A stretch of 36,880 bases of DNA from Bartonella massiliensis (GTDB taxonomy: Bacteria > Pseudomonadota > Alphaproteobacteria > Rhizobiales > Rhizobiaceae), in the NCBI RefSeq assembly GCF_902150025.1, contig NZ_CABFVS010000030.1, positions 1-36,880 of the forward strand, read 5' to 3'. The notes under the pieces are model-generated. The model was not told where the DNA came from and did no database searches. It saw only the letters and a program-made list of their open reading frames with translations. Positions 8,480 to 32,234 of this stretch are shown here, piece after piece. How positions within the stretch are numbered: position 1 is the stretch's first letter; each line of letters starts with the position of its first letter. The position numbers and the translations under genes are program-made.

Positions 8480-8591
8480 TTTGTTTTGTTATTTACAATA
8501 AAAACATAATGATATAAAAGCTGGTCGGGTACTTGCGCCATCAGGGGAATGAAGTAAGCATCAAAGCATACCAAATACTAAAGGCATATCT
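8480..8591 (+). promoter_or_regulatory. Duplicated promoter and leader of autotransporter gene 2
   Basis: This 112-nt stretch is nearly identical to 12051-12161 in front of gene 3. It contains TTTACA and TATAAA (8513-8518) separated by about 15 nt, which are candidate promoter boxes. A roughly 70-nt leader follows (GCTGGTCGGGTACTTGCGCC, then ATCAGGGGAATGAAGTAAGC) with the ribosome site AAAGG about 7 nt before the ATG. Retention of the whole leader, unlike the diverged passengers, suggests shared control. Exact promoter boxes are tentative. Confidence 0.55.
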
Positions 8592-12050: not shown

Positions 12051-12161
12051 TTCGTTTTGTTGTTTACAATAAAAACATAATGATATAAAAGCTGGTCGGG
12101 TACTTGCGCCATCAGGGGAATGAAGTAAGCATCAAAGCATACCAATATTAAAGGCATATCT
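12051..12161 (+). promoter_or_regulatory. Duplicated promoter and leader of autotransporter gene 3
   Basis: Nearly identical to 8480-8591. Differences are a few substitutions in the T/G-rich start and one missing base near the ribosome site (CCAATATTAAAGG against CCAAATACTAAAGG). The identity continues into the signal-peptide codons to about 12250 and then drops sharply. The same candidate boxes TTTACA and TATAAA are present. Confidence 0.55.
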
Positions 12162-16590: not shown

Positions 16591-19513
16591 ATGAAAAAAA
16601 GTTTCTTACTATACACAGTTTCTGGTGTTCTGTTTTATTCTTCATCAAGCTTGTCTTATGCGCTTCAGAGTGCAACTCCAGCACCAACGATAGATCTCAC
16701 TTCTCCACAATCTGCTCGTGCTGAGAGTTCGGTAGATACAGCCAAAGTTTTTTAATCCATATGGTAATTCATCTGATGGGTTTGGAAACGCTTATCCACC
16801 CTATCCTTTCTCTCTGCGTTCAACATCTAACGCCCCTACCTCCCCTACCCCATCTGAGAAACCAACAAAATCTGAAACGGCTCCAGTAGCAGAAGTAGCA
16901 AAATCGAGAAGACGTTCAGGTGCTTCCGATACTTCCTCTTCGAGTGAATCCAGCGACAAAGCACTTCCGAATTCTGCTTTATCTTCACAGCCAGAATCGA
17001 TACAATCTTCACCCTATTTACGACCAACATCTAACGCTACAGAACCAATACTTAGAAGATCAACAAGAGGAGTATCATCAGAACCAGAACGCACACAACC
17101 AATATCTTTAAGGCCAGCAGGTGAACAAAACGCATCATCGGTACAATCAGCGCAATCTTCATCTACACAAAACGTACCTGAAAAATCAGAGCTTACAAAA
17201 CCAATATCTCCCATACAGCCTAAAAATCCTGCACAAATCGAAGATATAAGTGCTAGAGTTGAGGCTAAGAATGGTAAAACGATCACTCTGCATAACAAAA
17301 AAATTCAAAACAGAGGGTTCACTGTACATGCGGAAGGGAATAATTCAAAAGTCAACATGACAAATGGAATAGTTGATGCGGGTTTTGTTGCATTCAGTGT
17401 ATCAGAGGGTGGAACAATTGATGCCGCAGATATTATGGCAACAGCAGAAACAGCTGGTTTGGTCAACATAGAGGGGACAATCAATCTTAAAGATTCAAGC
17501 ATACATGTCACAGGGGAATTTGAAGCGAATGGTATTATTTTCCGCAGTGATCCATATCGTGCCCCTCAAAAGCGATATACACGCAATGTTGAAAGCAATG
17601 CCAACGCCACTCAAAAACAAGTTATTGCGGGTACAGTAAATCTAGAGGGTACAAAGCTGGTCGCTGAACATGGTTCAGGAATCAGCCTTTATGGAATAAA
17701 CACAAACGGTATCATCAACCTTAAAAATTCAGAAATTTGTGCCGATATTTTAGTAAAAAATACGAAAAACGAAAGCGACTCCACAAACACTCTTACACTG
17801 GTTGCGGATCGCTCTTCTTTAGAAGGTCGAGTCAGAACTTCTAGAGATAATAGGACAATTTTTGATCTAAAAGAAGGGGCGAAATGGTACATAAAGCCCA
17901 ATAAAAATGCTTTAAATAGTGATAATATTTCAGATGATGATACTGTTTTAGATGACTATGTACGGTTTGGTCTTGATGAAAAATCATTCTCTAACCTTTC
18001 TACCTTACAGCTTACAGATAGTGCCATTATATTCGCTAAGCCTATGGAAGGACATTACCAGACTTTGTTTATAGGGTCTCAATTTCCACAAGAAGATGGA
18101 ACTGCGCATACAGCAGCGGTTTATAGTGCAAAAGGTGTTGCAGAGATTTATGTAAACACTCAATGGGACAAACATTCTCCTATCAAAGAACAACAAACCG
18201 ATCGCATTCTAATTAATGGTGATGTATCGGGGCATACTATTGTTCATATCAATCTCCAAGAAATAGATAAAAAAGCAACCGATAATTCTGCTGTCTGGGG
18301 AGACCACATGGCGTCACTTCCTTTAGGAACACATGGGGTTTCAATCATTCAAGTTTCCGGACAAGCAAACGAAAATTCCTTCACGCTCGCCGGAGACTAT
18401 ATGACAATAGGTGGACAGCCTTATAAGTATATCCTTGCAAGCTATAGACCTGGAACATCTCATGAAAGCCAAAATCTTTTGGGTAAGAATAATAATTTCT
18501 GGGATTTCCGCTTACAAAATGCCTACGTTGATAAGGATAAAAAAGTTCGAGCACTTTTACCACAGATGGCAAACTATTTAACTCTGCCGAATGCTTTATT
18601 CTCTTCTGGATTTTCTGATGTAAACAATCAAAACGTGTTGTTAGACGCAATGCGAACAACAGTGTTTGACGCAGAAGACAATAAAAAGAATAGTCTCTTT
18701 TTCTCTTCCTACGGCGAGAAAGTCAGCTTATTTTCCAACCGTGGCCCATTGCGCTATGGTTATGATGCTGATGTAAACTATGGAGCATTACAATTGGGGG
18801 GTATATTAGCCACCTTTGAAGGCAAAAATATAAGCACACATTTTGGTCTTATAGGAACATACGGAAAGCTTGCCTTTACACCAAAAGAAATGCCAGATTC
18901 TGAAAAGACAACACTTGATAAATGGTCACTCACCGCTTATAGCGGCATCCAGCATAGCAATGGTCTCTATGTCAATGCTCTTCTTTCTTACGGAACCTTA
19001 AAAGGAAACATTACCACAGCTCTTGTTGGGAATGCTGCAAAATTAGATGGAACTGAGTTCCTTAATATATCAGCAACCCTTGGTCAAAAATTAGCAACCG
19101 ACACCAAAGGACTGGTCTTTGAACCACAAGTGCAATTGATTTATCAAAATCTCATGTTTGATATTTTTTCAGATGCCAATGGTTTAAAAATAGACATGGG
19201 AAATCCACATCAATGGTTGGTCCGTTTTGGTGGACGTTTAACAAAAACGATCATGGCTACGGAAGAAAACAAGGCTGTTTCCTTCTATGGTAAAATGAAT
19301 GTTATCAGAACTTTTGGTGATGGCAAAACAATAAAAATTGCCGATACCTTTGATCTTGATCCTACAGGCTCTTCAATTGAGGGAGGCATGGGTGTGAATG
19401 CCTATCTTTCTCAAAATATTGTGCTGAATGGCGATATTAGCTATCGACAAAAACTGCAAAAAACTGGTGTATCGGGAGCTAATGTTTCGGGTGGCATACG
19501 GTATCGTTTTTAA
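16591..19513 (+). pseudogene. Autotransporter with Pro/Ser-rich linker (gene 5), one frameshift
   Basis: Start ATG 16591 gives a signal peptide MKKSFLLYTVSGVLFYSSSS...SYA. After 54 codons a TAA appears at GTTTTTTAA (T run 16748-16753). Removing one T restores the frame as AKVFNPYGNSSDGFG and gives an uninterrupted protein of about 973 residues. Residues about 55-210 are a Pro/Ser/Thr-rich stretch with near-repeated LRPTSNA and LRPAGEQNA motifs. A beta-helix passenger then begins (RVEAKNGKTITLHNKKIQ near 221), followed by the pre-barrel module (STLQLTDSAIIFAKP, INGDVSGHTIVHI, VSIIQVSGQANENSF) and FWDFRLQNAYV (about 636) to GGIRYRF. Everything after the slip is intact. It may be phase-variable, a recent pseudogene or an artefact. 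Without the fix only a 54-residue secreted peptide is made, since the next ATG (17357) lacks a signal peptide. Confidence 0.85.
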
Positions 19514-20080: not shown

Positions 20081-20355
20081 CTCACCCCTATCATTATGAT
20101 ATCTCAACTGCAGCAAAAAGATCAAACGAACCATTTTAGTGATTGCTTAAGGGCTCTGTAACACGCCTCATAAAGATTTATTTGAGCTTCACAAGCAAGG
20201 CTTTTCTTTTTAAGAAGCATATTTTTATGAATTGAGTAAGCACGCCTTAAAAAAATTGAACGGCAAACCGCCTTTCATAAAAAAAATCTATCCGTTTCAA
20301 AAAAATGATTTTTATTGCCAAGACCCTAAAATTACTCTACACATTAAAAGATGTT
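20081..20355. other. Intergenic upstream of the structured RNA
   Basis: No gene. A loose promoter candidate for the RNA is TTGCCA (20315-20320) with TACACA 17 nt later; both boxes are weak. An 88-codon open frame from 20232 crosses the structured RNA and is judged fortuitous. Confidence 0.35.
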
Positions 20356-20550
20356 TTGGTCGCATACGCAACGACCAAGTGGGCCTTGAAAACCCTAAAT
20401 CCGAGCGTGAAAATAACCCCACTGTTGTGGGTGTCCCGGAATTCCGGGAGATTTTGTTATGTCCAGGTGCATCTTACGCACTAAAAGCAAAATGCTGACT
20501 CGGATTCAGTGTTTTCAAGCTCCCGGAATACCAATGCGAGGGCGCTCGCA
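20356..20550 (+). ncRNA. Structured leader/small RNA, Brt-like, upstream of XRE gene
   Basis: About 195 nt, distinctly GC-richer than its surroundings, with nested helices that can be read directly. They are: TTGGTCG/CGACCAA (20356-20378); a closing helix CTTGAAAAC (20385-20393) with GTTTTCAAG (20511-20519); a second helix AATCCGAG (20398-20405) with CTCGGATT (20499-20506). Inside these lie hairpins CCCAC-TGTT-GTGGG (20418-20431), CCCGG-AATT-CCGGG (20435-20448) and GTGC...GCAC near 20467. A final hairpin is TGCGAG-GGCG-CTCGCA (20535-20550). It ends directly before the ribosome site of an XRE-type gene. Bartonella henselae has nine Brt RNAs of about 200 nt, each just upstream of a small DNA-binding protein gene (Trp) and involved in badA control; length, order and partner agree. 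Identity with a Brt RNA needs a sequence search. Confidence 0.7.
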
Positions 20551-20564
20551 ACCGGAGGGGGCAA
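20551..20564 (+). promoter_or_regulatory. Strong Shine-Dalgarno of the XRE gene, possibly sequestered
   Basis: ACCGGAGGGGGCAA: GGAGG lies 6 nt before the ATG. GGGGGC (20557-20562) can pair with GCTCCC (20519-20524), allowing one G-U pair. GCTCCC directly adjoins the closing helix of the upstream RNA, whose GGG (20381-20383) can compete for the same CCC. That allows an on/off arrangement; this is inference. Confidence 0.4.
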
Positions 20565-20924
20565 ATGCAAGCTCAAAACCTTAAACTTGATCTTTTTGTT
20601 GGCAAAAAAATTCGCTTGAGACGAAAAATCTTAGGAATGTCTCAAAAAACATTAGGACAACACTTAGGTGTAAGTTTCCAACAAATTCAAAAGTATGAAA
20701 AAGGCTTAAATCGTGTAAGCGCAGGACGTTTAAAGGAAATCTCCGATATTTTGAATGTTCCACTTACCTTTTTTTATGCGGATATCATCACAAACGAAAA
20801 CGCCCCGTACCATCATGATGAAATTGCATCGAGCAAAGAGGAATATCTGCTTTTAAAAAGTTTTAGAATTCTTCCCTCTGTCAAACAGAAAGCCATTTTA
20901 AAATTAATTTCTGATCAAAATTAG
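20565..20924 (+). CDS. XRE-family helix-turn-helix regulator (Trp-like)
   Basis: A 119-residue DNA-binding protein of the Xre/lambda-repressor HTH class. The HTH domain spans about residues 10-65: VGKKIRLRRKILGMSQKTLG, then QHLGVSFQQIQKYEKGLNRV and SAGRLKEISDILNVPLTFFY. The SQ..LG...GVS..QI.KYE pattern is the canonical two-helix motif of this family. The C-terminal half (about 80-119) is short, with KEEYLLLKSFRILPSVKQKAI, typical of rhizobial and Bartonella XRE proteins. The start has a strong GGAGGGGG ribosome site. It is the only regulator in the window and directly follows a structured RNA, as do the trp genes of B. henselae, where Trp1 is reported to act on the badA promoter. The five autotransporter genes upstream are candidate targets by proximity only. 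Confidence 0.9.
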   Translation: MQAQNLKLDLFVGKKIRLRRKILGMSQKTLGQHLGVSFQQIQKYEKGLNRVSAGRLKEISDILNVPLTFFYADIITNENAPYHHDEIASSKEEYLLLKSFRILPSVKQKAILKLISDQN

Positions 20925-31377: not shown

Positions 31378-31608
31378 TTATACTTTTCCGTATTTTTTTG
31401 AAAGCAATTCGCGGATCTCGTCAGCCATTTTGGTTCCACGACTGGCACAACTGACCTTCATTAACCGATGCAAAGTTTCTGGTATATCAATCGTGAGACG
31501 CTTCACCCCTCCACTCATGCTCCCTTTTTGACTTCCTATCCATGCATCAGCCGTTAAAGGAATGGATTTACTGGTTGGTTTTGTACCAATTTTAATTTTT
31601 TTATTCAT
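31378..31608 (-). CDS. Ribbon-helix-helix partition/antitoxin-like protein
   Basis: A 76-residue protein with a disordered, basic N-terminus (MNKKIKIGTKPTSKSIPLTA) and a C-terminal ribbon-helix-helix domain: VKRLTIDIPETLHRLMKVSC, then ASRGTKMADEIRELLSKKYG. The strand RLTIDIP followed by two helices is the MetJ/Arc/CopG fold. It directly follows parA, its ATG overlapping the parA stop as TGATG, with GGAG 8 nt upstream (a GTG one codon earlier is also possible). Small RHH proteins downstream of a short ParA are centromere-binding partners in type Ib partition systems (ParF/ParG of TP228), so it probably binds parS and represses the operon. No parS-like iteron set was found by eye. Confidence 0.8.
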   Translation of the reverse strand: MNKKIKIGTKPTSKSIPLTADAWIGSQKGSMSGGVKRLTIDIPETLHRLMKVSCASRGTKMADEIRELLSKKYGKV

Positions 31609-32234
31609 CACGCTAACTCCTTGATTTCCGCTGCAACAGCTTCAATCTCTGCTGTTGCTGGTCCTTGCTTATCAACTTCATAAACAGCTTTTCCCTGTGC
31701 TGCAGCTTCTGCAAAAATCACACGTTGTGCAACACTAGAAGAAAGAACAGGGACATGATATATACCAAGAGCTTCATTTACATCACGCCCTATCGCTGTA
31801 TTGACTATTTTACGATTAATAACAAAAGCAGATTTGAGATTTTCTTTATAAACACGTGCTTCATCAATCAACTTTACAATTCCATCAGCAGCCCAAATAT
31901 CATAAGGACTAGGCAAAACCGGTATAAGCACCAAATCTGAAGCCATAAGAGCACTCCGCGCAAGATCAGTTACACGCGGAGGACCATCAATAATAATATG
32001 GTCATAACTATGACCAATCTGCGCAATCTCTTTGTGAACCGTTGCACGCGGTAAACCAATAACCGAAAACAAAGGAGCATCTTCACGCGCAGCAGCCCAG
32101 TCTAATGCGCTCCCCTGAGGATCAACATCAATAAGCAATACCCTTGCACCAGTACGCGCAAAACTGGCCGCAAGATTCACGCTCAACGTGGTTTTTCCAA
32201 CACCCCCTTTTTGATTCAAAAATCCAATGATCAT
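31608..32234 (-). CDS. parA: ParA-family partition ATPase (short, plasmid type)
   Basis: A 208-residue deviant Walker-A ATPase. MIIGFLNQKGGVGKTTLSVN carries the signature KGGVGKT with the lysine typical of ParA/MinD. Walker A' is LLIDVDPQGSALDW, and Walker B-like IIIDGPP lies at about residue 80. There is no N-terminal HTH, which places it with the type Ib/ParF class and not with chromosomal ParA (about 260 residues). It segregates plasmids or integrated elements over the nucleoid together with the RHH protein that follows with overlapping codons. Both genes look intact and GC-richer than their surroundings. With the EexN-type lipoproteins nearby, it suggests a plasmid-derived segment. The upstream 150 nt may hold the operator/parS, but no iterons are evident. 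Confidence 0.92.
   Translation of the reverse strand: MIIGFLNQKGGVGKTTLSVNLAASFARTGARVLLIDVDPQGSALDWAAAREDAPLFSVIGLPRATVHKEIAQIGHSYDHIIIDGPPRVTDLARSALMASDLVLIPVLPSPYDIWAADGIVKLIDEARVYKENLKSAFVINRKIVNTAIGRDVNEALGIYHVPVLSSSVAQRVIFAEAAAQGKAVYEVDKQGPATAEIEAVAAEIKELA

Follow-up and report, generated by a model that had tools for sequence, protein, structure and literature searches.

A Brt RNA before a trp regulator gene in Bartonella massiliensis: a putative pseudoknotted leader and strand-exchange switch

We identify an element in the genome of Bartonella massiliensis as a Brt RNA, a new member of a known family, and we propose, with a probability of about 0.6, that Brt is a conserved pseudoknotted leader which stands before an XRE regulator gene (trp) and acts in cis as a strand-exchange switch. 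Because the paired skeleton of the element is found again, in different letters, ahead of unrelated genes of other bacteria, a folding switch that decides whether the downstream gene is made seems likely. In the literature searched, neither the pseudoknot nor the strand exchange nor any relative beyond Bartonella was found described. Brt1 is reported to be one of the RNAs that B. henselae makes most abundantly, and it lies upstream of a regulator of the adhesin BadA (PMC5387305). Hereafter, the window designates the whole stretch of DNA that was analysed, i.e., 36,880 nucleotides of contig NZ_CABFVS010000030.1.

Results

Identity and distribution of the element

According to Tu et al. 2016, Brt RNAs are 194-203 nt long, multicopy, conserved at their 3' end and located 10-18 nt upstream of an XRE gene, and Table 1 of that paper gives 0 to 34 copies by species together with one plasmid copy, in B. 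grahamii as4aup (PMC5387305). The element of the window, whose ends are predicted at 20350 and 20550 with a gap of 14 nt before the XRE (Trp) gene (Table 1), resembles the Brt1-9/Trp system of B. henselae in genus, length, gap before the XRE gene and multiplicity (Tu et al. 2016, PMC5387305). Of the 71 genomes of the genus, a DNA search matches 46 and a covariance model 49, with 0 to 34 matches each, and the only match of the Brt-trp query on plasmid pBGR3 has 73.6% identity over 87% of the query. The copy range and the single match on the B. grahamii plasmid are as in the published table, and the window copy is therefore a Brt RNA. The sequence-only reading had already assigned the element to the Brt/Trp system, and genus, size, position, gap before the XRE gene and the sole pBGR3 match agree with this assignment; absent from that reading were the pseudoknot, the predicted promoter and 24 further Brt places in the genome.

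A DNA search of the element's own genome returned 25 Brt places including the window, some of them partial, and 13 additional short matches to the palindrome on the other strand, while a covariance model of the core gave 25 matches. All 18 sites of the promoter pattern and all 21 distinct H8 sites (at most two mismatches) in this genome coincide with listed Brt places. In Rfam, the window gave no family at the gathering threshold, and 20200-20700 gave none with E up to 5; five loci that hold other copies and four that hold distant relatives lacked any match covering the element, and an existing Rfam family was rejected as its identity. We also discarded a phage or plasmid origin: no phage matched, and the five plasmids that did are all from Bartonella. 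The locus L170 matched nothing in plasmids or phages, L173 nothing in plasmids, and a strict pattern nothing in viral contigs. As to the surroundings, phage tail gene fragments (tail X, P2 GpU) lie at 170-765 of the window and a ParA-like gene at 31608-32234, approximately 11 kb past the Brt-trp pair; the distance from trp to parA is about 0.4 kb on plasmid pBGR3 and about 0.3 kb on pTT0105.

Table 1. Features of the Brt-trp locus in the window (RNA ends and promoter are predictions)
Feature	Position	Strand	Basis or remark
Predicted promoter	20315..20343	+	TTGCCA 20315-20320, N17, TACACA 20338-20343; TTG and TA each conserved in 97 or 98 of 98 aligned copies
Brt RNA, about 200 nt, ends predicted	20350..20550	+	14 nt upstream of ATG 20565; size consistent with the published 194-203 nt
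Helix H1	20356-20362 with 20372-20378	+	99.0% of cells paired in 96 copies; loop has conserved ACGC
Helix H2	20385-20393 with 20511-20519	+	double changes in 8 of 9 pairs; cognate arm test
Helix H3	20398-20405 with 20499-20506	+	double changes in 7 of 8 pairs
Hairpin H4	20418..20431	+	double changes in 5 of 5 pairs
Hairpin H5 (tcccgg aatt ccggga)	20434..20449	+	competitor holding the pseudoknot 5' strand; 89.2% of cells paired in 116 copies
Pseudoknot PK	20441-20450 with 20520-20529	+	98.3% of cells paired in 116 copies; 3' strand complementary to Shine-Dalgarno region
Helix H6	20451-20457 with 20487-20493	+	alignment of 96 copies
Conserved internal loop	20458-20466/20482-20486	+	between H6 and H7; words retained in 12 of 13 distant relatives
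Helix H7	20467-20470 with 20478-20481	+	alignment of 96 copies
Alternative hairpin H9 (CUGA/UCAG)	20495..20509	+	loop contains most of the H3 3' strand; paired in 93 to 96 of 96 copies, almost invariant
H8, near-invariant 3' hairpin TGCGAGGGCGCTCGCA, without U-run	20535..20550	+	alignment of copies
Shine-Dalgarno region CCGGAGGGGG (ribosome site ccggaggggg)	20552..20561	+	sequence; predicted pairing with 20520-20526
trp gene, XRE/HTH_3 regulator, 119 aa, PraR-like	20565..20924	+	Pfam HTH_3

Conserved fold

Transcription would start at about 20350. The GC content reaches 0.485 at 20400-20599 compared with 0.33-0.37 in the nearest non-overlapping stretches, and the window RNA folds with an energy of -78.7 kcal/mol against a mean of -62.7 +/- 4.9 for shuffles (z = -3.29), in keeping with the GC-richer segment of nested helices that had been read from the letters; the small HTH gene with a strong ribosome site directly downstream is likewise confirmed. 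For the comparison of copies, 96 sequences were aligned out of 104 full copies (99 unique) after incomplete, N-bearing and duplicate pieces had been dropped, and a core alignment of 116 joined to the full copies 19 of the 28 partial matches seen. Helices H1-H4, H6, H7 and the pseudoknot PK are shown by this comparison. Taken together, eight helices are paired in 94.2% of cells and have double-sided changes in 26 of 56 pairs (96 copies), values that, pooled, were reached on any measure by 0 of 500 shuffles, which preserve columns and not relatedness.

Helices H2 and H3 are among the most variable and the best supported. They correspond to the two long-range pairings of the sequence-only reading, both of which proved real, with double changes in 15 of 17 pairs among the 96 copies. 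When each 5' arm was paired with its cognate 3' arm, the mean energy was -18.7 kcal/mol versus -11.5 +/- 0.3 for permuted arms, a loss of about 7 kcal/mol; the cognate arm ranked in the best tenth for 80 of the 96 copies, and for 6 it did not surpass the average non-cognate arm. In the 116 copies, PK has double changes in 7 of 10 pairs, some of which stem from two shifted rows of locus L030, and 0 of 500 shuffles reach the observed value. The strand of H2 abuts the PK strand at the next base in 66 of 96 copies and lies within one base of it in 85. Hairpin H8 is near invariant, with zero double changes in the 96 copies. In Bartonella, the 5' strand of H5 repeats the PK 3' strand, and both pair with parts of 20441-20450. 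The Brt1-9 paper presents RNAfold structures and a riboswitch-like 3' end, and what it says of the fold includes no pseudoknot (PMC5387305), whereas one is supported here.

Hardly any variation is seen in the ACGC of the H1 loop and in a large part of the internal loop (AUGUCCAG/UAAAA), for which no partner is known. In one copy (L043:1115-1336), whose trp is broken, the 5' and 3' arms do not fit together and resemble arms from different Brt types, which looks like a recombination between halves. A leader peptide was considered and rejected: 82 of the 96 copies have an AUG at 20459, but the ORFs that start there scatter in length (commonest 7 or 12 codons, the rest from 8 to over 35) and so share no conserved frame.

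Relation to the downstream gene

We counted trp as intact when an ORF of at least 85 codons starts no more than 50 nt from H8; rows that offered little DNA downstream were also taken as intact. Such an ORF follows 72 of 100 full copies with enough downstream DNA. The cognate gain of H2/H3 amounts to 8.2 kcal/mol where trp is intact (70 copies) and to 4.7 where it is broken (26 copies; p = 0.0003), and by columns the pairing is worse with a broken trp for H3 (p = 0.0004), H5 (p = 0.0008), H1 (p = 0.01) and H2 (p = 0.03), these p values being uncorrected for the number of helices and for relatedness, with related copies in arrays. PK is not significantly worse (p = 0.11), nor are H4, H6, H7, H8 and H9 in the 96 copies. 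Partial copies, mostly without H5, are followed by a qualifying ORF in 3 of 21 cases long enough for the check, and one of these three ORFs, of 253 codons, is hardly a trp. The comparison favours a Brt role tied to the downstream gene.

Trp, PraR and the autotransporters

Judged by its sequence, Trp is a regulator of the PraR/PhrR/CdxA kind; its closest relatives among the matches listed come from Bartonella sp. AU16XJBT, B. queenslandensis, B. tribocorum and B. grahamii. The genome holds a further XRE paralogue (G000:C2:142774) between lnt and metK, a position which we take to be the praR locus; it is 42% identical to Trp over 106 residues and has no Brt match in the DNA search of this genome. 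The window trp is a paralogue that lies elsewhere than between lnt and metK, i.e., not where a PraR orthologue would be placed. Residues Q39, Q40, Q42, K43, Y44, E45 and R50, in what is presumably the recognition helix, are invariant in 68 Trp sequences, and for this reason the DNA recognised by the paralogues is probably similar. In Rhizobium, PraR acts as a repressor of adhesin genes (PMC4149787), and the Caulobacter homologues share binding sites and control adhesins (PMC10688885). Trp differs from these regulators in that its genes form a multicopy set of paralogues preceded by Brt. The -35 region of the Brt promoter has TTGYMAA-like words resembling the PraR word TTGCAA, which we regard as a lead only.

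Five autotransporter genes upstream of the element had been noted from the letters, and the PF03797 genes indeed end at 19513, 837 nt before the predicted RNA start. The accompanying idea that Brt/Trp controls these neighbours was not supported: 11 of the 16 autotransporter domains of the genome are on contigs C13, C24 and C35, which have no Brt match, and the contig of the window (C30) is the only one with both autotransporter domains and Brt, in a draft genome of 90 contigs where linkage is visible within contigs only. On this contig evidence we reject a systematic link between Brt and autotransporters. The YadA-anchor genes lie on C3 and C54, neither contig having a Brt match. The motif TTGCAA reported for PraR is absent from the three sites for which Trp binding had been suggested (8480-8591, 12051-12161 and 1100-1170), which says little because only about 0.06 occurrences are expected in 112 nt. 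Distant control of adhesins by Brt/Trp, as reported for badA, is possible.

Distant relatives of the skeleton

Plain DNA similarity to the element was found only in Bartonella. A model (R1) run with stricter filters on 297 genomes of the order gave a single weak match beyond the genus. Within the genus, R1 matched once in each of G058-G060, Bartonella genomes of another lineage that had given nothing by DNA search; in two of these (loci L171 and L173) the element is directly upstream of a different XRE gene, whose product has 47% identity to Trp over 64 residues with a common SFQQIQKYEKGL stretch. A second model (R2), whose training included the G058-G060 matches and the weak outside match, was run on six genomes of f51, another family of the order, and found 11 elements in five of them, one of which was in the training set. 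The family is called genus-specific in the Brt1-9 paper (PMC5387305), whereas the presence of the core in five of the six f51 genomes is at odds with a restriction to Bartonella. Pattern matches outside the genus in G076 and G195 were set aside as chance, being inside ORFs and without a model match; the reversed pattern also matches several genomes.

The f51 elements stand in tandem in three genomes, and what lies downstream is either an ORF of about 90 aa that matches no Pfam family or a CMD (PF02627) gene; 4 of the 11 (L192_1501, L188_1501, L188_2124 and L190_900) are followed by another element instead of a gene. Among the 13 distant elements, the internal-loop words are missing from one only (L188_2610, which lacks one word), and a local hairpin capturing the PK 5' strand is present in all 13. 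As read from the sequences, H9 appears retained or re-paired. Although H2/H3 are absent from the models that found these elements, cognate arms pair at -18.0 kcal/mol versus -11.2 +/- 1.0 for permuted ones (0 of 20,000 permutations), in windows limited to the two strands, a narrowing that followed a wide-window result of 5.5% of permutations, and in both tests with the identical relative L172 dropped and several of the 13 closely related. The hairpin behind the f51 elements is accompanied, within 15 nt, by a run of four or more U in 8 of 11 cases, and in all 11 its stem takes in 4-5 nt of the PK 3' strand. This hairpin is repeated head to tail in L192 (after 1636 and after 2275) and in L188 (after 1642). 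A recurrent ATTGCTTATTTRCAA-like word lies near the presumed -35 of several elements (L174, L188, L190, L192), perhaps an operator.

Discussion

It seems reasonable to picture the strand exchange as follows. Hairpin H5 would form first and hold the PK 5' strand (20441-20450), so that the PK 3' strand (20520-20529) would be left free to pair with the Shine-Dalgarno region; with this region masked, trp would remain untranslated, its mRNA would be lost past H8, and the abundant 200-nt Brt RNA would remain. Formation of the pseudoknot, with H2/H3 alongside PK and around the conserved internal loop, would remove the 3' strand and trp would be made. In f51 the same strand overlaps the terminator-like stem, and the equivalent move would allow read-through. 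The trigger is perhaps a ligand; a review states that low heme raises a downstream gfp (PMC8070961). Predicted pairing of the PK 3' strand with the Shine-Dalgarno region has a mean energy of -9.7 kcal/mol in the 96 copies versus -6.2 for shuffled strands, and reaches -14.3 and -12.9 kcal/mol in one example from each distant lineage.

The same switch might also work with the opposite polarity, the pseudoknot blocking the ribosome and the H5 state being ON, an arrangement we find somewhat unlikely. Nested folding is in its favour and against the polarity proposed above: the Shine-Dalgarno region is more open in the H2/H3 state, without PK, in 80 of 96 copies (0.44 vs 0.25), and the PK 3' strand pairs with it at a mean probability of 0.25 only, in a model where PK and H2/H3 cannot coexist. 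Between the two nested folds the median energy difference is 1.7 kcal/mol, and the pseudoknot fold is the lower in 39 of 96 copies. The distant examples tell against the reversed arrangement: since the PK 3' strand there complements the Shine-Dalgarno region, and is entered by the terminator-like stem in 11 of 11 f51 elements, its capture should free the gene. A classical attenuator, in which H8 would be an intrinsic terminator and the switch would make the antiterminator, is in our opinion an unlikely account of Brt, although short transcripts do stop before trp (PMC5387305), trp1 mRNA goes up once the 3' stem-loop of Brt1 is deleted, which also fits the strand-exchange switch (PMC8070961), and the U-runs of 8 of 11 f51 relatives are of the kind expected. 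In Bartonella, the hairpin followed by a U-run that defines an intrinsic terminator occurs in 0 of 98 copies, TTT within 12 nt after H8 being found in none of them and 49 having no T at all.

That Brt RNAs are mainly trans-acting sRNAs pairing with mRNAs such as badA, their position before trp being incidental or a second role, was proposed for Brt1, and we hold it to be improbable. The high abundance of Brt accords with it, and antisense Brt1 raised badA with no visible longer transcript, from which the authors infer a trans effect (PMC5387305); the predicted targets of Brt1 include a truncated badA copy and other genes (PMC5387305), and unpublished pull-down data are mentioned in its support (PMC8070961). 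Yet full-length badA is predicted to bind Brt1 weakly, at -1.73 kcal/mol (PMC5387305), a broken downstream trp goes with poorer pairing of H2/H3 and H5, and the skeleton keeps its position before a gene in other lineages, though the genes differ. One may finally wonder whether the conserved palindromes (TCCCGGAATTCCGGGA and TGCGAGGGCGCTCGCA) are DNA operators for Trp instead of RNA helices, as might be suggested by the near invariance of H8 without double changes and by the full conservation, in 68 of 68 Trp sequences, of seven residues at or beside the presumed recognition helix. We consider this very unlikely: the 21 H8 sites of the genome are all at listed Brt places, and the double changes of PK and H2/H3 span 80-130 nt, which an operator would not need.

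Riboswitches with exchangeable expression platforms form a general class, and Brt has in common with them a near-invariant internal loop in the core, an exchange between two helices and a Shine-Dalgarno region or terminator as likely output; unlike them, it has about 25 places in one genome, most before one gene family, matches no Rfam family in the loci searched, and its ligand is hypothetical. The conserved core lies upstream of Trp, of a second XRE type, of small ORFs and of CMD, with the Shine-Dalgarno region or a terminator-like hairpin as putative outputs. It is tempting to go a step further than the strand-exchange leader and to suggest, tentatively and at rather less than even odds, that Brt is the Bartonella expansion of an undescribed Hyphomicrobiales riboswitch class, with a strand-exchange pseudoknot, a near-invariant ligand pocket (AUGUNCARG / CYAAAR) and an output swapped between terminator and ribosome site, which would have been copied tens of times in rodent Bartonella, placing a whole set of PraR-like adhesin regulators under one signal.

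The family core extends beyond one genus, and with a defined fold, a conserved internal loop, competing helices and relatives before other genes, the questions of cis or trans action and of sensing are directly testable. If the riboswitch-class reading is true, one signal would gate the whole set of PraR-like adhesin regulators.
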